IMG/VR virus record: IMGVR_UViG_3300017709_000028
Span: 1-24,995 of that record
Reading direction: 5' to 3' (one strand)
Length of the DNA stretch: 24,995 nucleotides
From: a virus
The notes under the pieces are model-generated. The model made no database searches. It was not told the DNA's origin and worked only from the letters and a program-made list of their open reading frames with translations. Below are positions 1,521-16,716 of this stretch, piece by piece. Position 1 is the first letter of the stretch. The number at the start of each line of letters is the position of its first letter. Made by a program: the position numbers and the translations under genes.

Positions 1521-1877
1521 TCAGAAAAGCCACTTCACGCCAAGCTTGGTTCCGATCGAAGGATCCTCTTCTGCCGTCAAAAAGCTGAGTTCGCCATAAA
1601 TGCCAACGTTTTCGGCTACCTGAACGTTTCCGCCAATCTTGCCGGACAGTTCAAATTCACCGTCTTCACCCTGCGGTGACACAAAAGCTGGACCGCCCTG
1701 GGCGTAGTAGCTGTAAACGCCGTCAGCGCCTTCAAAACCAATGTGGAAATCTGTGGTTGCGCCTAAGTAGTCGCCGCCCGAATAACCAGCGTTATTTTCC
1801 ACGTTGACATAAGGGCCTGCCAAGGCAGCTGAACCAGCGAGAACACCAGAAACAGCTACTGCGAATGCTTTGATCAT
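1521..1877 (-). CDS. Secreted outer-membrane-like beta protein, 118 aa
   Basis: Residues 1-20 are a textbook Sec signal peptide: Lys at position 3, a hydrophobic Ala/Val core and an ALA cleavage site before Gly21. The mature part (about 98 residues) has alternating polar and hydrophobic residues with many Gly and aromatic residues, as in short beta-barrel strands, and ends in KWLF. A terminal Phe is the usual beta signal read by the Bam complex. This suggests a protein placed by the phage in the host outer membrane or periplasm. Similar porin-like small proteins occur in cyanophages as I recall. The ATG at 1877 lies directly after an A-rich stretch with no clear ribosome site. A strong terminator follows the gene. 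The role is inferred: altering host envelope permeability or blocking superinfection are the main options. Confidence 0.82.
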   Translation of the reverse strand: MIKAFAVAVSGVLAGSAALAGPYVNVENNAGYSGGDYLGATTDFHIGFEGADGVYSYYAQGGPAFVSPQGEDGEFELSGKIGGNVQVAENVGIYGELSFLTAEEDPSIGTKLGVKWLF

Positions 1878-2713: not shown

Positions 2714-4957
2714 CTACGCGCTCTTCAGCGCAGCGACCTCATTTTGCAGCTCCTTAACCATAGCCGTCAACTCTTGTACTGCATTAACCAGTACAGGAAC
2801 AAGATGCTCACCTTTGTACTTGAGGTGATCAGCGTCTTCGGTGTCAATGATGACGGGGTTATCACCTTCTAAGGCAAGGATGTCTTGCGCTTTGAAGCCA
2901 TAACGTACATCACCATTTGGTGTTTCAGTGTCACGATCTACCTTGAATTGATAGGCAGTTGGCTTGAGTTGATTAACAAAGTCCAGACCATAAGGTACTG
3001 GAGCAAAGTTCATCTTATCGCGTTCGTCTGATGTAACGGTCCAAGATACTTTGACGTAGGCATGGCTGATTGATGAATGACCTAAAACAAGACGGTTGCT
3101 TTCTGTTGTTACGTTAAATACTGGTGAAAAAATGTTAGCGCTTGTTTTAGCTCCAATACCAATGTTGCCACTACCAGTCGAACAATTGTAAAGAGCATAA
3201 GCACCAAAAGCAACGTTTGATCCTCCGGTGGTATTAAAATAAAGGGCCTTATATCCACTAGCCGTACTTTCCGCACCAGTGGAGTTTTCAAAGAGAGCTT
3301 GTCTTCCGATAGCCACGTTATTAGAACCAGTAGTGGTGTAATAGAGAGCTTCACTTCCGACAGCAGTGTTGCTAGAACCAGTAGTGTTTAAACGACCAGC
3401 AAGCCTTCCAATAGCAACGTTGTTGCTTGCTGTGGTGTTGGCATTTAACGCAGTAAGGCCAATCGCTATGTTGTAATTACCAGTGGTGTTGGAACGAAGA
3501 GCGTCATTACTAATGGCTACATTTTGTTGGCCTGTGGTGTTGCTTAAAAGAGCAGTATTTCCGTAGGCTATGTTATTTGAGCCAGTAGTGTTGTTATATA
3601 GAGAGCTACTTCCACTTGATATGTTGTTAACTCCAGTTGTATTGCTCTGGAGAGCTGAGGCTCCGATAGCTAAGTTGCTATGTCCAGTGGTGTTTGAATT
3701 AAGGGCATAATATCCATTAGCTACGTTGCTACTACCAGTGGTGTTGCTTTGTAGAGCACCATATCCGGTAGCTACGTTGTTGCCGCCAGTGGAATTAGTA
3801 TAAAGAGAATAAGTACCAACGGCTGTATTGTTAGTAGCAGTAGTGTTTTGTGCAAGGCTTTGGTACCCAACGGCTGTGTTGCTATTGCCAGTGTTGAGCT
3901 TAAGCGCAAATGTTCCTAAGCCTGTATTTTCAATTCCAGTGGTGACGGATTTAAGAGCTTCATATCCGGTAGCTACGTTGTAATTACCAGTGGTGTTGGC
4001 ATAAAGTGCCGCATCACCAATAGCTGTGTTATTGACAGCAGTCGTGTTTTGATAAAGAGCCGCTTTACCTACAGCAACGTTATTAGAACCAGTGGTATTG
4101 GTGTAAAGTGCTTGTGATCCATTGGCTACATTGTAATTGCCAGTGGTGTTGCTATAAAGAGCTTGGTATCCGCTAGATACGTTGCGAGTTCCAGTGGTGT
4201 TGGAAAGTAACGCACCACGGCCTGTAGCAGTGTTACTGTCACCAGTGGTATTGGAATAAAGTGTACTTACGCCAATAGCAATATTACTTGCTCCAGAAGT
4301 ATTTGTATAAAGAGCACTTACACCATACGCTCCATTAAAAGATCCAGTTGTATTGCTACGAAGAGCATTTACGCCAACAGCAACATTTTCTATGCCAGTG
4401 GTGTTATTTTGAAGAGCACTCTTACCGCTAGCTGTGTTGTTAGCGCCAGTGGTGTTGAGATAGAGAGCGTATGTTCCAGCTGCTGTATTGTTACTTCCTG
4501 TAGTGTTGTTATTAAGAGCTTTGTATCCGGTAGCAGCATTATCAGCACCAGAGGTATTTGAGTTAAGAGCTTGATAACCAAACGCCGAATTACCGTCAAC
4601 ATTATTCCCACCACGACCAACTGTTAGCGAGTTGATGGTTGCGTCTGCTGCCGCAGTGATTGAGCCGTTTCCTGAGAGGGTAAGGCCAGCAGTCGTTGCG
4701 TCTGCGTCATACATTGTGATGCTAAACGGATCACCGCTCCCTCCAGCATTAAACAAAGCACGTTGCTCATTTCCATCAGTATTAGAAGTGTTAATCTTAA
4801 AATTGCCATGCAAAGTTAATGGCTGAGTTGGAGAGCTGGTGCCGATACCCACGCGGCCAGAGCTGTCAACAATGATGCGCTGCGCTCCACCCGTCGTGAT
4901 ACTGACGCTTTCACCGTTATTAGGTGTGACGATATTGTTTACTTTGATGGTGCTCAT
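2714..4957 (-). CDS. Tail fibre with 27 beta-roll repeats and S74 chaperone domain, 747 aa
   Basis: The N-terminus (residues 1-45) has the IIVDSSGRVGIGTSSP type of module shared with the other fibres here. Residues 134-591 form 27 tandem copies of a 17-residue unit (consensus NTTGxxNxAxGxxALxx), flanked by one partial copy on each side. The Asn-x-Ala-x-Gly ladder resembles the left-handed beta-roll of trimeric adhesin heads (YadA type). The C-terminal part is an S74 intramolecular chaperone: SDERDK at 643-648 carries the Ser643-Asp644 cleavage site and Lys648, and the last 30 residues form a coiled coil. The domain is known to drive trimer folding and then cut itself off. The start overlaps the preceding stop as ATGA. 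It probably binds the host surface as a trimeric fibre. Confidence 0.93.
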   Translation of the reverse strand: MSTIKVNNIVTPNNGESVSITTGGAQRIIVDSSGRVGIGTSSPTQPLTLHGNFKINTSNTDGNEQRALFNAGGSGDPFSITMYDADATTAGLTLSGNGSITAAADATINSLTVGRGGNNVDGNSAFGYQALNSNTSGADNAATGYKALNNNTTGSNNTAAGTYALYLNTTGANNTASGKSALQNNTTGIENVAVGVNALRSNTTGSFNGAYGVSALYTNTSGASNIAIGVSTLYSNTTGDSNTATGRGALLSNTTGTRNVSSGYQALYSNTTGNYNVANGSQALYTNTTGSNNVAVGKAALYQNTTAVNNTAIGDAALYANTTGNYNVATGYEALKSVTTGIENTGLGTFALKLNTGNSNTAVGYQSLAQNTTATNNTAVGTYSLYTNSTGGNNVATGYGALQSNTTGSSNVANGYYALNSNTTGHSNLAIGASALQSNTTGVNNISSGSSSLYNNTTGSNNIAYGNTALLSNTTGQQNVAISNDALRSNTTGNYNIAIGLTALNANTTASNNVAIGRLAGRLNTTGSSNTAVGSEALYYTTTGSNNVAIGRQALFENSTGAESTASGYKALYFNTTGGSNVAFGAYALYNCSTGSGNIGIGAKTSANIFSPVFNVTTESNRLVLGHSSISHAYVKVSWTVTSDERDKMNFAPVPYGLDFVNQLKPTAYQFKVDRDTETPNGDVRYGFKAQDILALEGDNPVIIDTEDADHLKYKGEHLVPVLVNAVQELTAMVKELQNEVAALKSA
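3185..4558 (-). repeat. 27 tandem 51-bp repeats inside a fibre gene
   Basis: Twenty-seven in-frame units of 51 bp encode the 17-residue motif; the fifteenth full copy counting the flanking partial as first (near 3890) lacks one codon and is 48 bp. Units differ mostly at the two residues after NTTG, and at the two residues before Ala-Leu. Asn, Thr, Gly, Ala and Leu positions are nearly fixed. Short DNA blocks such as CCAGTGGTGTT recur in most units, so slippage or unequal crossing-over could change copy number. Confidence 0.95.
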
Positions 4958-6597
4958 GAACTTGCCTCCAAGGATGCAACTTTTGTTTCAAGGGTTTCAA
5001 TCTTGGCGATTGCCTCTTGTAGTGCTGCTGTAAGCAACGGTACAAGTTTAGATTGATCGATGCCTTGCATCTCCTCACCATCTTTCTCACCTGTTACAGC
5101 TTCAGGTACAACAGCTTGTGCTTCGTGAGCAAGGAAGCCATCAACTGTTGTTGTATCGTCAGCGATAAAGTTAAAACGTCTTGGCTGAAGTTGCTTGACG
5201 CGAGTAATGCCATCAGCAATGGTTACAACGTTTTCTTTTAAACGATAGTCAGAGGAAGTATTGTAAGCAACAGAAGAATTTCCCATTGAGATGCTGCCAT
5301 TTTCGCTACCATATCGCTTGTAAAACCTTATCGGTTTTACTCCAGATTGTGTAAAACTATTTATTCTTCCTGTTGCATCTTCAATAGAAACTCCAATATT
5401 TGCTGTTGTAGTATCACTCGTTAATCCAAAAAGTACAGTTCCCGCGCTGTTGATTCGCATCCGCTCGGAACTACCCGCTGTAAAGATTAACGCAGCATTT
5501 GTTGCTTGGAATTGATATTGTCCAGCACCATTTTGACAAGTCAATATGCCTGAGTTTCCAGTTCCGCTGAAAGTAGTGCTGCTAACCTTGCCGCCATTAA
5601 CTTTTAGCACATCTTCCGCAGGATTATATAAAAGACCGGAACCACCATCAATTACACCTGCACTCGTTTGGAATAAAACTGCTTGGTTGGCGTTATTGTT
5701 AGTTCCAGGGACTGCATTGATCGTGATACTCCCCGAGCTGTTGATTCGCATCGCCTCATCTGCAGCTGTCCAAAACCGCATTGAATCAGTTGGATGATGA
5801 TATTCAACTTGACCACGATATGCAGCATCACCAGACGTTCCATCCGCAAATAAAAGAGCACCGACAGTTGTAGAACGAATATCTATATATGAAGAAGAGC
5901 GCGTATGATCTCCTGCACTAATCAATCGATCAGGGAAACTACTTGTTGTCGAAGTTCCAACTAACAAACTTCCCGAGCTGTTGATTCGCATTCGCTCGGT
6001 GCCATTTGCATGGAACTGTTGTGTATTACCTTTAAGGATTAAATCCATCCAAGCATTTCCGCTTCTGTTGAATGCTTGTATTTGACCAGAGGTACTGGTT
6101 GGCTTAAATATTTCAATGCCACTACCAGCTGAAGGCGTTACATTTTCAGTTACTTGAATACCGCCCGTAACATTTATTAGTCCCGAGCTGTCGATTCGCA
6201 TTCGCTCGCTTTCAGCTGTATTAAATGCCATGGCATCACTGCCATGTTCATATTTAATAATGCCTCTATTTAAAGCTCCACCTGATGTACCATCAGCAAA
6301 GAAAATATGTCCATTATTACCAGTACCACTAACAATAGTTAAGCCGCCATTACTACCCGTATTTCCCAATACAAGCTCATTGCCTGCACTGTTGTAACTG
6401 CTGGGATTGCTAATGTTAATCCCAACTTTGCCCGAGCTGTCGATGTCAACGCTGCCAAGATCAACCGATCCATCAGCTGCTTTGACAATCACCTCGCCAG
6501 CAGTTGCTGGCAGTGTTAGCTGCAAGTCGCTGCCTATAGCCGCAGGAACATTCAGCTCAACTGAACCAGACGTTGCCCCATTAAGCTTGACAGGCAT
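4954..6597 (-). CDS. Tail fibre protein with S74 chaperone domain, 547 aa
   Basis: Residues 1-60 form a beta-rich N-terminal domain (MPVKLNGATSGSVEL). The middle is a string of short beta modules separated by seams of the type RMRIDSSGxxxx or RMRINSSGxxxx, seen about six times. The S74 domain begins at Ser449-Asp450 with Lys454 (SDYRLK) and ends in a coiled coil (LVPLLTAALQEAI onward), giving a cleaved chaperone of about 98 residues. The start has a fair ribosome site, AGAGGT nine bases before ATG. It lies in the middle of six fibre genes and probably forms a trimeric receptor-binding fibre. The seam DNA is nearly identical to that in the next upstream fibre gene, which suggests exchange of modules. 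Confidence 0.92.
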   Translation of the reverse strand: MPVKLNGATSGSVELNVPAAIGSDLQLTLPATAGEVIVKAADGSVDLGSVDIDSSGKVGINISNPSSYNSAGNELVLGNTGSNGGLTIVSGTGNNGHIFFADGTSGGALNRGIIKYEHGSDAMAFNTAESERMRIDSSGLINVTGGIQVTENVTPSAGSGIEIFKPTSTSGQIQAFNRSGNAWMDLILKGNTQQFHANGTERMRINSSGSLLVGTSTTSSFPDRLISAGDHTRSSSYIDIRSTTVGALLFADGTSGDAAYRGQVEYHHPTDSMRFWTAADEAMRINSSGSITINAVPGTNNNANQAVLFQTSAGVIDGGSGLLYNPAEDVLKVNGGKVSSTTFSGTGNSGILTCQNGAGQYQFQATNAALIFTAGSSERMRINSAGTVLFGLTSDTTTANIGVSIEDATGRINSFTQSGVKPIRFYKRYGSENGSISMGNSSVAYNTSSDYRLKENVVTIADGITRVKQLQPRRFNFIADDTTTVDGFLAHEAQAVVPEAVTGEKDGEEMQGIDQSKLVPLLTAALQEAIAKIETLETKVASLEASS

Positions 6598-11728: not shown

Positions 11729-14700
11729 CTAAGCTTGCTGTGTACCGTATCCTATCGCAGTGTAACTAAAAAATCTATTGATAAGCTGATCGCCATCAAA
11801 AGTGCCCTTAAATGTAATTGTAAATCCTGTTGCTGTAGGCTCACTTAAATCAAAGTAATCCCCTGCCTCCATGTCTGAGACTGTAATGCCAACAGATACT
11901 TTGGTGTCGTCATCAACGTAAAAAGGTTGTTTAAAAACGACAGTCTTCGTGCCAAGACCAGACCCAATAGTTCCGCTGTTCTCAACTCGCCGTTCCAGCT
12001 GCACTGATACTCCTAGCTCATCGATCAAAGGCGTTTGGTCAACATGATCCGTACTCAGCACAGCTTTAAATTGGAACGATCTGCCGACGTAAGCATTATT
12101 GTCTAACGGTATCCATTCTTCAAACACAATGTCTGACTCTTGAAGAATGTTGCTCGCATCTTCAAATTGAATTTTATCTCCATTCTCGTTCACAATGTCG
12201 GCCTCAGGATACACTCTGCCAGTGCCAGCAGCCGACCCAGTAGCAATAAAGCTGGTATTAACCGTATTGCTTTGTGCGCCAATAGCAGTAAAATCTGTTG
12301 TGCCAGTAGTTAAAATTGTGTACCTATTATTAGCCACTAACGAACCTGCGCTAATAAAACCAGTCGCGGCAAAGTCTGATTTGCGAAAGTACGCTTCAAC
12401 GTTAGTATCGTCAGGAATCTCACCGTCAAAGTCTGACCAAGTATTTATTAACACTGTACGATCGTCGATAAGGTCGCTCTTGTAAAGACCTCTGGATGAA
12501 AGGATTCGATTCAATCGAACGTTGAACTTTGCTCCAAGATCAACTATTTTTTGAAATATGTATTCGCCACTAGAAAATTGTGTTCCAAAATGACTGTCAA
12601 TATTATCAGTAAATCCAACAAGGTCTGGTATAGCGTCAAAAGACGCATCACCATCAAAAATTAGACCGTCGTAAACATCGCTGTAAAAAACATTGTTTTT
12701 TTGTCCAGGAAACTCCCCAGGCGAAGCGTCTTCACGAGTTACTTCAAAGTCGTACTTAGGGATTGCATCTGGAACGTTAATAACAGCACTGCCTGCTTTG
12801 TTGCTCCGCTGGTTCTGGTCATTAACAAACTTGACAAGGTACTCACCGTTCAACAGCGGCAAGACGACAGAAGTGGTTCGTGCCTCAACTTTGCTAAGTA
12901 ATACACTATTTGGCCACGTTCCAGTACCGTCCGTTTTTGAGTTATGCCGAATATGCGCGACAAAACTTTCAAGTTTTTGACCACTCGCCGTCGCCGCCCA
13001 ACTCAAAACAACTTGATCTGCACCTACCAGTTGAATAGTTACATTCTCCGGATCAGGCGGCAAAACAATAGTGGCCAAGCCGTCTGCCGTGTCACTGGTT
13101 CCACCAACACCAATAACTCTGTTGGCAAATACAGCATCGGACTGCCTACGGTCTGGCTCAGGGCCAATCGCCCTGGCCTCAACATACAAACGCTTGCCAG
13201 TGGCTAAATTAGTGTTGATGTCAATCGAATTATCAGAAGTAGTAACCGTTGTGTAATTGCCACCTAGGCCAACTTTGTACTTCACCCTAAACTCAACTGC
13301 TGAAGCAGATAGTCCTCGAGCCCACGAAACCGTGGCACGGTTTGTTGTATTACGACCATCGTCTATTTGTTGGAACGCAATCGCTAGGTTTTGTGGATTT
13401 GCAGGTTTTGTTCCATAAATAGACGGAGAAGGTAGCGCAAGATTTGCGTCTAACTCATCAACAATGTTATAAATGCCGTCAACGTGTTTGACGCCAATAA
13501 TGCTATAAGTCCCGCCTTCGCCTTCTGCAACAGAAAGACAGCGGTATTTATTCAGAACAACTGAGTCATTTTTAATTGCGTATAGCGCATTGTCTGGTGG
13601 CGGCTGAGTGAAAGGGCTTGAAAGAGTCACCTTCACGCCACTAACGCTAGCAATAGCCTGGGTCTCTACGGCTCCATCAGCCATCACAACAGTTAGCTTG
13701 TTGCTTGACCCGGCGGGTAATACTGCTGTTTGGTCTAAATTCACAAAGTCACGAGTTGCTCCAACGACCCTGCCCGCAAGTCGCGTAGCAAGTCGCATTT
13801 CATCGGATACCTCGAAGACCTGACCAGGCAATACGTTTAAACCTTCAAGACCAACAGAGAACGTGATTGTTTCATCATGCAGCTTTTCGGACTGCATAAT
13901 CCAACGTCCCATGCGTTGCGCTTGATATTTAGACGTACAGCCAAACGCAACTACGCTTTTTTCTTGTATGCCATATTTTTCGATTAAAGCTTGGTCTTCA
14001 ATAATAATAAAGTTAGATTTGTAGAAATTGTCTGGATCGTTGTAGCGAACACGAACCCTGGTGCTACGAGTCTTGAGAGATGAACCGTTATAAACAAAGC
14101 TGCCATTAACAACATTTGAATTGCTGAAAACATGAATGGCATCAACATTTTGACCGTTTAGCTCACCGTGGTCTGCCGCAAGCTGTACGTTGTCTGCTTT
14201 CCAGAAAACCATCCCACGGAATACACTGGCCATGTCTTGCAAGACGTTATAAGCCTCTGCCTGCGACCCAATAACAGTATTGATCGCGAAGCGAGGTTCA
14301 GTCCCCTCCGGCGTAGTGACTAGCTCATTGCAGTATCTAGCAATATCGATTAGATCAACCCAATTCAAATTTGACTGGTCGATAAAATCACCAGCGCCAA
14401 AACGGCTATTGGTAAGCATGTTGTAAAAACAACAGACTGGGCATGTTGTCCAGTGCAGATCTGTTGTCAGACTGCCATCAAAGGGAATATCTGAAGACTT
14501 GAAAGCAAGACTGCCGTCAGCCCGAATGCTGCTGTAGTTCGACGGCAGCTGAACTTTCATGCCTTTTACTTCGTAAGCTCTTGCAGGCAGCGTGTTGTAC
14601 TCCTCCGAATCAAGGCTTAAATATGCAAGCGCTGTAAAGGGATACGAGGTTTTGATTCGTTTGCCAAGAACCATACTTGTCCAAAAAATCTCGTCAGCAC

Positions 14701-15403
14701 GCTTGTCTGCCAAAGGAGTTCTTTTCGGCAGATCGACTAGATCTTCAAACCTAATCTCAAATGCATCCTCAGCATCTGCAAATTTACGCTTCCTCACTCT
14801 GATGCGATAGGGAAACTTGTATTCGCGCAAGTCAATTTCTTGCGTCTCAAATTGATATCCAGACCTAGATATCCCTTTGATAACATTCTTTCGTCCTGTG
14901 TTCACCGAAGCGATGTCAATTTTATCAAAATTGCCGTTTTGATCTTCTATTTCAACATTCAGTTTTATTTGAGCAGAGAATAGTTGCCCGCGAGCCAAGC
15001 CTTCTGGAGCAACACAGAACAGCTTATTAACAGTAAAAACTAATTTTACAAAGTCAACTTCTGGATCCGTAATGTCCCGGATAACTTGCCCTTCTCCGTA
15101 GTCGCGGCCATTTCGCTTAACTAAGTCTTGGTCAGTTAACTCTTCGCTATAGCTAGACCCAATTTGCGCGTTAACCTGCTCAATAGTCGTCTGAGAGTTA
15201 TAAAAGCTTGTACTCCTGCTGAAGTCACCCTGCTCCTGTGTCCCCCTTGCACCTTTTACATAAACAGCTCTTTGTTCCAGCTGTTCGACGGACACCTCTG
15301 TTTCGTTTAAAAAGATGCTCTTGCGACGATCGACGAAGCCTTCAATAGGCCCCTCACAAATGGCATCGATCAACTTTAGATTAGTTTTTGAATTAAGAGC
15401 CAT
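11729..15403 (-). CDS. Tail tip host-specificity protein, lambda gpJ-like, 1224 aa
   Basis: The start (KTNLKLIDAICEGPIEGFVD) and length are typical of the J family, which forms the central tip that contacts the host receptor and passes DNA. The N-terminal two thirds form the hub; a J-type segment HWTTCPVCCFYNMLTNSRFG is visible near residue 315. Two fibronectin type III domains lie at about 663-765 and 775-877. The C-terminal part (about 880-1224) holds further beta domains and an inserted module at about 1013-1065 with TTDFTAIGAQSNTV. The start overlaps the previous stop as TAATG. It completes the lambda order L, K, I, J. Receptor-binding parts are probably shared with the fibres downstream. 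Confidence 0.95.
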   Translation of the reverse strand: MALNSKTNLKLIDAICEGPIEGFVDRRKSIFLNETEVSVEQLEQRAVYVKGARGTQEQGDFSRSTSFYNSQTTIEQVNAQIGSSYSEELTDQDLVKRNGRDYGEGQVIRDITDPEVDFVKLVFTVNKLFCVAPEGLARGQLFSAQIKLNVEIEDQNGNFDKIDIASVNTGRKNVIKGISRSGYQFETQEIDLREYKFPYRIRVRKRKFADAEDAFEIRFEDLVDLPKRTPLADKRADEIFWTSMVLGKRIKTSYPFTALAYLSLDSEEYNTLPARAYEVKGMKVQLPSNYSSIRADGSLAFKSSDIPFDGSLTTDLHWTTCPVCCFYNMLTNSRFGAGDFIDQSNLNWVDLIDIARYCNELVTTPEGTEPRFAINTVIGSQAEAYNVLQDMASVFRGMVFWKADNVQLAADHGELNGQNVDAIHVFSNSNVVNGSFVYNGSSLKTRSTRVRVRYNDPDNFYKSNFIIIEDQALIEKYGIQEKSVVAFGCTSKYQAQRMGRWIMQSEKLHDETITFSVGLEGLNVLPGQVFEVSDEMRLATRLAGRVVGATRDFVNLDQTAVLPAGSSNKLTVVMADGAVETQAIASVSGVKVTLSSPFTQPPPDNALYAIKNDSVVLNKYRCLSVAEGEGGTYSIIGVKHVDGIYNIVDELDANLALPSPSIYGTKPANPQNLAIAFQQIDDGRNTTNRATVSWARGLSASAVEFRVKYKVGLGGNYTTVTTSDNSIDINTNLATGKRLYVEARAIGPEPDRRQSDAVFANRVIGVGGTSDTADGLATIVLPPDPENVTIQLVGADQVVLSWAATASGQKLESFVAHIRHNSKTDGTGTWPNSVLLSKVEARTTSVVLPLLNGEYLVKFVNDQNQRSNKAGSAVINVPDAIPKYDFEVTREDASPGEFPGQKNNVFYSDVYDGLIFDGDASFDAIPDLVGFTDNIDSHFGTQFSSGEYIFQKIVDLGAKFNVRLNRILSSRGLYKSDLIDDRTVLINTWSDFDGEIPDDTNVEAYFRKSDFAATGFISAGSLVANNRYTILTTGTTDFTAIGAQSNTVNTSFIATGSAAGTGRVYPEADIVNENGDKIQFEDASNILQESDIVFEEWIPLDNNAYVGRSFQFKAVLSTDHVDQTPLIDELGVSVQLERRVENSGTIGSGLGTKTVVFKQPFYVDDDTKVSVGITVSDMEAGDYFDLSEPTATGFTITFKGTFDGDQLINRFFSYTAIGYGTQQA

Positions 15404-16716
15404 TAGCCTGTGAGAAGACGGTATCCATAACCCTGAAGCTCAAACGTAGCATCATCATGCACTGCTGCATCAATAATCTCAACCGTTAGATCCATTCCGT
15501 CGCCATTGCGCTTATCAACGCTTGGCATCTCCATGCGATGGCCGTATGTAAAATTTTGAGATTCGTTTACTAATCCTTGCAAAGTTACTTGCGCCGATGC
15601 AACATCAATATCTGAACCACCGCGTGTAATTGCCACGGTTATTTTGTAAGTAATAAAGCCATCAATTTTAGTCGTTCCCTCTGCCGCTACATAGTCATAC
15701 AGACCACGGTTTACAGAAAATATAACATCTAGCTCATCTCTTTTGTCTTTGTTCTTTTTGTACTCAAGCTGGGGGCGGTTGGATCCACCAGTGCCAGTAG
15801 TGTACTGAGCACCTGTTTCAATTTGTTGATCTTGATTTTTGCCGAAAACCTTGCTTATCTTCTGCCGTTTTCCAGGTAAATTTGAAACCTTAATTGGCAA
15901 GACATCTCTTTTGCTATCTATGCCCCCACAGGGCTTCAGCTCTCTTTTCAACTTATCGCTGTTAATTTTTAATGTTCGTAGCGATGGCTTCTGAGTTTCG
16001 AGCTTAAGAGGATCAGAGTCATCAGAAACCTCAAGATTCGCCGCGAGCAGATGACCACCTGTAATCACACGCCCGTAAATGACAGGCAATGTTGCCCCCG
16101 TTCCAACAGTATTAGCTGGACCGCTAAAAGCATAAGACTGCTCTCCTGATCCGCCTCGCGTAACACCATCAGGGCCGGGACCGCGAACACTGGTGCCTTT
16201 GCCCCGTATTCTGTCGCCGCCAAGATTCCCAAGCTGCGGTTGTGGTGAAAGTAACTGGGCCGTACCGCTAAGAATTAACCCGATACCAAGGGTGCCGCCT
16301 GCTGCAACAAGAGTCGCGCCAAGGGTCGCACTTGCTGCTCCAGCCACGGCTCCTGCGCCAAAACCTGCCGCACCGCCTAATCCAAAACCAACGGCAGGGT
16401 TAATAATTGCCAGCGCAACTAAACCAACGCCAAGCAAAATCTGGCCCGTCGAACCGCCACTGCCGCTGATCACCGGCACTACCAGCAATGGCTTACTGCC
16501 AAACGGCAGCTGCAGTTCGTCGTATCCCATCGACGCACCACCCTGGATCACCTTATATCCAACGCCGTTATGGTGCGCCTCAATTAGCTCTTGCTTAAGT
16601 TGTGGATAGTTAAAACACAGCAGCTTGATTGCATCCGCTGGTGTCTGCAGGTTGTAATACTCGTGTTGCTTGCCGTATTTCTCGCCAAGCTCACCTGCCA
16701 GCAGGACAAGTTGCAT
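15403..16716 (-). CDS. Tail assembly protein, lambda gpI-like, with long C-terminal extension, 437 aa
   Basis: Residues 1-75 look like the beta-grasp-type N-terminus of gpI (YGKQHEYYNLQTPADAIKLL). Then comes a Gly/Ala-rich hydrophobic stretch (about 85-160) that could insert in or cross a membrane, and a segment with GPANTVGTGATLPVIYGRVITGG as in the I family. Lambda gpI is about half as long; here about 200 further residues follow, including a basic Lys-rich region (about 245-330) and a beta-rich C-terminus. The gene lies between NlpC/P60 and J as expected. Its ATG at 16716 overlaps the preceding gene by 26 bases. The extension may be a separate tip domain. Confidence 0.88.
   Translation of the reverse strand: MQLVLLAGELGEKYGKQHEYYNLQTPADAIKLLCFNYPQLKQELIEAHHNGVGYKVIQGGASMGYDELQLPFGSKPLLVVPVISGSGGSTGQILLGVGLVALAIINPAVGFGLGGAAGFGAGAVAGAASATLGATLVAAGGTLGIGLILSGTAQLLSPQPQLGNLGGDRIRGKGTSVRGPGPDGVTRGGSGEQSYAFSGPANTVGTGATLPVIYGRVITGGHLLAANLEVSDDSDPLKLETQKPSLRTLKINSDKLKRELKPCGGIDSKRDVLPIKVSNLPGKRQKISKVFGKNQDQQIETGAQYTTGTGGSNRPQLEYKKNKDKRDELDVIFSVNRGLYDYVAAEGTTKIDGFITYKITVAITRGGSDIDVASAQVTLQGLVNESQNFTYGHRMEMPSVDKRNGDGMDLTVEIIDAAVHDDATFELQGYGYRLLTG

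Follow-up and report, generated by a model that had tools for sequence, protein, structure and literature searches.

The Phage_OMP gene

The window is the whole 24,995-nt stretch of viral DNA analysed here (IMG/VR record IMGVR_UViG_3300017709_000028). At nt 1521–1877, on the complementary strand, it holds an open reading frame with an ATG start, which encodes a protein of 118 residues matching Pfam PF24653 "Phage_OMP" and PHROG phrog_417. Codons 1–20 (nt 1818–1877, complementary strand) encode a Sec-type signal peptide, judged by inspection, with an N-terminal lysine, a hydrophobic core and ALA at residues 18–20. Cleavage after ALA-20 is predicted and would separate SAALA from GPYVNVENN. The mature domain (nt 1524–1817, complementary strand) comprises 98 residues, with a net charge of −11 and six predicted strands. 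Residues 111–118, KLGVKWLF (nt 1524–1547, complementary strand), fit the pattern of a C-terminal aromatic beta-signal. Both elements named in the original prediction, the signal peptide with an ALA site and the KWLF end, are present, and the PF24653 match is full length.

The reading frame is a real conserved gene and not a chance ORF. Compared with 44 relatives of the same length, its median dN/dS is 0.19 (range 0.07–0.84), with 0.18 for the mature part (44 relatives) and 0.26 for the signal part (18 relatives with a defined value). A20, P22, Y23, N25–N29 and F118 are invariant in a 42-member alignment in which the signal region varies, and A20, P22, Y23 and F118 are still invariant among 80 more diverse members. 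The terminal Phe occurs in all 94 complete members, and 92 of them fit a beta-signal pattern that we wrote for this analysis. A wider set of 150 members, which was pre-filtered for the A-x-P-Y junction, partly overlaps the set of 94 and contains some contigs twice, has the terminal Phe in 150, the beta-signal pattern in 149 and a Cys after residue 15 in none. One relative (L041) shares 93% identity with the window protein in the mature part and has a quite different, equally hydrophobic signal in front of it.

PF24653 matches the protein end to end, residues 1–118 aligning with profile positions 1–122 at 133.2 bits (curated cut-off 27 bits; E 7.4e-39), and phrog_417 matches with E 5e-34. Pfam describes the family as 'Cyanophage outer membrane protein like beta barrel domain'; its other names are PHROG 417, DUF680 (in T4-like cyanophages), T4-LIKE GC 241 and PhCOG173. 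Because membership in PF24653/PHROG 417/DUF680 is full length, the kind of protein is already known, and the window protein is, by its sequence, a new member. Known copies share with it the full-length match, the signal/mature junction, the C-terminus and the size. PF24653 was the sole family reported in a Pfam search at E ≤ 1, with no match to the Ail/Lom profile.

Surroundings of the gene in the window

An intrinsic terminator-like hairpin with a T6 run (nt 1459–1496, complementary strand) lies directly after the gene. It was found by a hairpin search with our own criterion, by which an equivalent hairpin and T-run follow the OMP gene in 69 of 78 sequences; a separate pattern scan with a loop limit of 8 omits it. 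Within the spacer (nt 1459–1520) the word TCACAC is kept in 66 of the 78 sequences though the surrounding hairpins differ. The upstream leader is conserved; no promoter-like site was listed in it, and no Pho box was seen there by eye.

Three flanking genes recur with the OMP gene, all on the complementary strand. The downstream partner (nt 1215–1454) matches phrog_568 and has one hydrophobic segment; PHROG labels this family 'plasmid stability', a putative assignment taken from the label. The second downstream gene (nt 160–918) matches phrog_570 and encodes a hydrophobic segment and a Lys-rich tail. Upstream, comparison of the neighbours of relatives marks a gene for 64 residues (nt 1949–2143). 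In 62 of the 70 relative loci long enough to tell, phrog_568 lies within 500 bases downstream of the OMP gene, and the eight loci in which it is missing belong to relatives of 48–54% identity. Phrog_570 follows in 54 of 56 loci, and the 64-residue gene precedes in 52 of 73.

The nearest fibre genes are two ORFs with Peptidase_S74 chaperone ends (Pfam; nt 2714–6597, complementary strand). The original placement of the OMP gene beside fibre genes is loose: three small genes intervene before the nearest fibre gene, which ends at nt 2714. The 747-residue S74-chaperone protein of nt 2714–4957 consists largely of short repeats, NTTG-x-N-x-A-x-G-x-x-A-L, which by eye recall the head repeats of trimeric adhesins. 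Further along, a J-like central tail protein (phrog_31; nt 11729–15403, complementary strand) marks a lambda-type tail module. Among the window ORFs scanned, which do not include those at 16691 and 17348, the other lambda-type tail matches are I (phrog_32), K-like (phrog_30), M-like (phrog_14), the tape measure and the tail terminator; the lambda gene letters are our reading. Such matches make the window a siphovirus-type fragment, and by its sequence it comes from a lambda-tailed cyanosiphovirus. The best matches of the J protein by coverage are in Prochlorococcus phages MED4-117 and MED4-184/P-HS2, with 27–28% identity.

The OMP gene is situated on the J/fibre side with its own terminator behind it. 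In MED4-117, the one comparator, the same place contains a DUF7936-like gene, a 60-residue ORF and phrog_568-like and phrog_570-like genes, with no OMP gene; the 60-residue ORF does not match the 64-residue gene of the window. The PF24653 family was found in none of four named cyanosiphoviruses (MED4-117, PSS2, S-CBS1 and S-CBS2). Since the flanking module occurs in MED4-117 without the OMP gene and the family is absent from these four phages, the window gene looks like an accessory, moron-type gene in a siphovirus of cyanobacteria.

Relatives in cyanophages and picocyanobacteria

A tblastn search of 50,697 phage records found relatives in 470, whose names are all cyanophage or marine, with identity below 60% throughout. 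In IMG/VR, a scan confirmed relatives in 181 stretches; 80 of these were kept, the closest being 97% identical to the window protein. The family is widespread among cyanophages, and the window copy extends it to lambda-like cyanosiphoviruses. To call the gene an unusual cargo holds for the four cyanosiphoviruses above and fails for cyanomyoviruses and podoviruses, where it is common. Six MAGs (L082, L083, L084, L086, L087 and L088, under the labels Dehalococcoidia, Lewinella, Euryarchaeota, Rhodobacteraceae and Porticoccaceae) carry a cyanophage OMP gene. They are probably binned phage contigs and, being taken as phage, were left out of the host gene count; a 189-kb contig of a Prochlorococcus single cell (L085) may be phage too.

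Whereas the window copy lies in a lambda-tailed siphovirus-type genome between the 64-residue gene and phrog_568/570, the known copies inspected adjoin psbA, nrdC-thyX-phoH or pstS. In the podoviruses S-RIP1, 9515-10a, P-SSP10 and S-SBP1, a window-type copy directly adjoins psbA (4/4 inspected). In the T4-like phages S-ShM2, Syn33, S-P4, MED4-213, P-TIM40 and S-TIM4, the copy is immediately 5′ of nrdC or a glutaredoxin gene. P-SSM2, S-SM2 and SynMITS9220M01 have a window-type copy, then a lysine-rich second copy, then pstS. A search with this second copy of P-SSM2 matched 185 records. The lysine-rich copy has pstS directly downstream in seven of eight records inspected, the exception being P-SSP3 with psbA.

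The net charge of the mature part has a median of −11 (range −14 to −7) in 79 IMG/VR-type copies including that of the window, and of −10 in 12 reference copies; three lysine-rich copies have −2, −1 and −6. The family therefore comprises two types, the acidic type of the window and a pstS-linked, lysine-rich sister subfamily. As the window copy is acidic and away from pstS, the phosphate link belongs to the lysine-rich sisters. Kelly et al. 2013 is reportedly a source of that link.

We found no established function for the PF24653/DUF680 family in the literature. In excerpts of PMC3037559, DUF680 stands in a row headed 15 of a table of cyanophage-exclusive genes, from a comparison with 16 cyanomyoviruses; we read the heading as 15 of 16. 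Excerpts of PMC3686209 report over-representation of DUF680 cluster 173 and PstS cluster 174 at BATS and give cluster 173 for 7 of 17 T4-like phages, so this cluster may be the lysine-rich type only. The closest experimental record concerns ORF224 of S-TIM4, a PF24653 member at 108 bits. According to passages of PMC6224464, it collected 13 mutations, many of them disabling, at a cumulative frequency of about 100%, solely in populations evolved on Synechococcus WH8102. The authors link the loss to nutrient-replete culture and call ORF224 a nutrient-response gene. Since it was lost in passaging there, this family member is dispensable on WH8102 (PMC6224464, same passages). Of the S-PM2d genes changed under low P, as listed in an excerpt of PMC10976474, we could tie none to the family, and no comparable barrel protein appears in the excerpted text of PMC10957091.

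Host genomes were searched within the family to which the Prochlorococcus single-cell genome G004 belongs. The PF24653 profile matches at E ≤ 0.001 in 48 of the 400 genomes and exceeds the cut-off in 32 of them; it matches in none of 14 control genomes. Few matches are strong, and most are weaker and lie inside ORFs of 250–400 residues. One strong match (L168) is probably phage, because by eye it lies between scaffold-like and capsid-like ORFs. Three host proteins (L177, L180 and L181) contain two PF24653 stretches each (Pfam), and in all three the halves resemble each other at 17–21 SD above shuffled sequence. The window protein scores above the shuffle maximum against three of the six single halves (L181 h1, L180 h1 and L180 h2), and a profile–profile comparison gives a probability of 94% (E 1.2e-7). 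General barrel families also reach the profile weakly, as in an OmpA-like protein (L186, E 2.5e-5, below the cut-off). Each host half is remotely homologous to the phage domain. Passages of PMC6224464 report no ORF224 homologue in the host strains used; the remote matches seen here require profile methods.

Neighbours of the host relatives that have about 320 residues or two units include ZnuA (L171, L173, L175 and L182) and CobW (L177, L178 and L182); the same neighbour scan gave no match for two short cut ORFs (L183 and L184) and one further ORF (L181). The host relatives, unlike the phage copy, are of double length and chromosomal and have zinc-locus neighbours. By sequence, they are tandem duplications, often in a zinc-uptake neighbourhood, with the phage carrying one unit; the duplicated proteins probably have 12 strands. 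Among viral contigs, a search for two-unit versions (query L181) gave five pattern matches and no confirmed case. Host relatives of about 320–400 residues (L171, L172 and L182–L184), several of them of the 320-residue type, have His/Asp-rich stretches, and some stand beside ZnuA; they are possibly zinc-binding outer-membrane proteins of picocyanobacteria. SYNW2481, considered as a zinc-regulated porin, was dropped as a candidate, since an excerpt of PMC9337993 gives it as a periplasmic zinc-binding protein.

Predicted fold and possible role

AlphaFold places strands at residues 21–33, 36–52, 55–68, 74–86, 91–100 and 107–116. Two runs with different alignments (42 and 80 sequences) agree on these six strands, with mean pLDDT of 83.6 and 84.1 and pTM of 0.67 and 0.66; the N-terminus is poorly ordered and the mature part has high confidence. 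The top structural matches of the model are outer-membrane barrels: OprF (Z 11.0, 97 residues, 2.5 Å), a de novo designed transmembrane barrel (10.6), OmpA (10.5), NspA (10.5), OmpW (10.4), OmpX (9.8) and Ail (9.6). Middling Z scores mean little, because avidins appear below Z 8. Foldseek found no PDB match at E ≤ 0.001, its top rows nonetheless being outer-membrane barrels, and 11 BFVD matches at that level, the named ones being the PF24653 family itself. A sequence-profile search of solved structures gave a single weak autotransporter match (E 1.4).

Export and outer-membrane insertion, as originally proposed, are well supported by the family, the signal/mature boundary, the beta-signal, the predicted barrel-like fold and the matches to OprF, OmpA, NspA, OmpX and Ail. 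The window protein is very probably an outer-membrane protein. A classical monomeric outer-membrane beta-barrel has at least eight strands, and both predicted models have six. The matched chain ranges mostly begin well inside 8-strand barrels, which would fit a protein without one hairpin relative to them. We know of no natural outer-membrane barrel with fewer than eight strands. A six-strand barrel closing on its own is possible. Since a single chain gives only six strands, an oligomer is considered most likely; that the protein works as one is somewhat favoured.

The preferred reading, to which we give a probability of about 0.5, is that this accessory protein serves as a pore or adaptor in the outer membrane, probably in oligomeric form, and thereby alters how permeable the infected cell is to nutrients. 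Sec would export the protein, with removal of the signal after ALA-20, and its beta-signal would direct it through the Bam machinery into the host outer membrane. There it might form a dimer with a 12-strand barrel like that of the duplicated host proteins. The gene neighbours of the relatives suggest that such a small pore or adaptor could alter how small charged nutrients reach the periplasmic binding proteins. New here are the siphovirus setting, the six-strand unit versus the duplicated host proteins of zinc neighbourhoods, and the split between acidic and pstS-linked lysine-rich types, and we infer from them a nutrient-permeability role. The altered permeability of the original prediction fits the wider pattern of copies beside pstS and host relatives beside ZnuA, from which it would follow; a nutrient-related role as such is plausible at slightly less than even odds.

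The original prediction also suggested, as one example, that the protein could block the receptor to which these fibres bind. Such masking or superinfection exclusion, in which insertion of the protein would hide or replace the surface receptor of the same phage, would suit a gene located after the J and fibre genes, and recalls lambda, where lom is situated between J and the tail-fibre genes and its product reaches the host membrane (PMC12309495, in excerpt). Like Lom, the window protein is a phage-encoded exported barrel near J and fibre genes, and its fold matches Ail as noted; it differs in the missing Ail_Lom match and in its six predicted strands. Ail and Lom have eight strands. Position is the support for masking, yet the members inspected in named phages adjoin psbA, nrdC or pstS and not fibre genes, and one family spans myo-, podo- and siphovirus-type phages that probably need very different receptors. 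Loss on serial passage would also be unexpected for a useful exclusion gene (PMC6224464, as excerpted). Receptor masking is accordingly improbable, though still conceivable; the original interpretation is partly supported, right on the membrane and unproven on the receptor.

Two further roles are less probable still. Excerpts of PMC9146016 record a DUF680 protein by LC-MS of the S-SZBM1 virion (2 peptides, 25.4% coverage), a detection that weighs against a purely membrane role and stems from either membrane carry-over or a structural role, and the window gene lies within the tail-gene region, as a structural or tail-tip protein might. However, a signal peptide and beta-signal are ill-suited to a tail assembled in the cytoplasm, the separating terminator and the lack of the gene at this position in MED4-117 speak against an essential part, and ORF224 of S-TIM4 was classed as not particle-associated (PMC6224464, as excerpted); a virion component is quite unlikely. 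Equally slight is the chance that the protein aids lysis by weakening the outer membrane at a late stage of infection. Directly behind the window gene stand two ORFs with hydrophobic segments, and one relative (L032) has, within about 5 kb downstream, an endolysin-like ORF (phrog_10051, E 2.9e-54) as well as several ORFs that carry signals, but spanin-like lipoprotein features are absent (no Cys), and in other phages the gene adjoins psbA, nrdC or pstS and not lysis genes.

Returning to the pore or adaptor, a more specific version is speculative and rather unlikely. The phage copies may be split, half-size versions of the duplicated host zinc-locus protein, each a six-strand half-barrel that would close only when paired, with itself or with an adjacently encoded sister, to give a pore of 12 strands. 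Acidic copies such as that of the window would serve cations or metals, and the lysine-rich ones directly upstream of pstS would serve phosphate. Such a pore would be an outer-membrane counterpart to the periplasmic PstS of the phage. If pores paired from six-strand halves supply the periplasmic binding proteins, phages would be adjusting, at the outer membrane, how permeable the ocean's main phototrophs are to nutrients, and the paired six-strand unit would be a natural outer-membrane building block.

Other exported proteins were seen near some copies. A cluster of phrog_848, phrog_650/DUF6322 and phrog_564, near phrog_568/570, occurs at L032:11597-13513 (−) and in P-SSM2 at L190:167-2195 (−), and is common to the siphovirus relatives of the window and T4-like cyanophages. 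An 'OMP1 protein' annotated at 178482–178985 of SynMITS9220M01 (L163:18520-19023, −) resembles by eye ORF 245 of P-SSM2, which matches phrog_564 and not PF24653.
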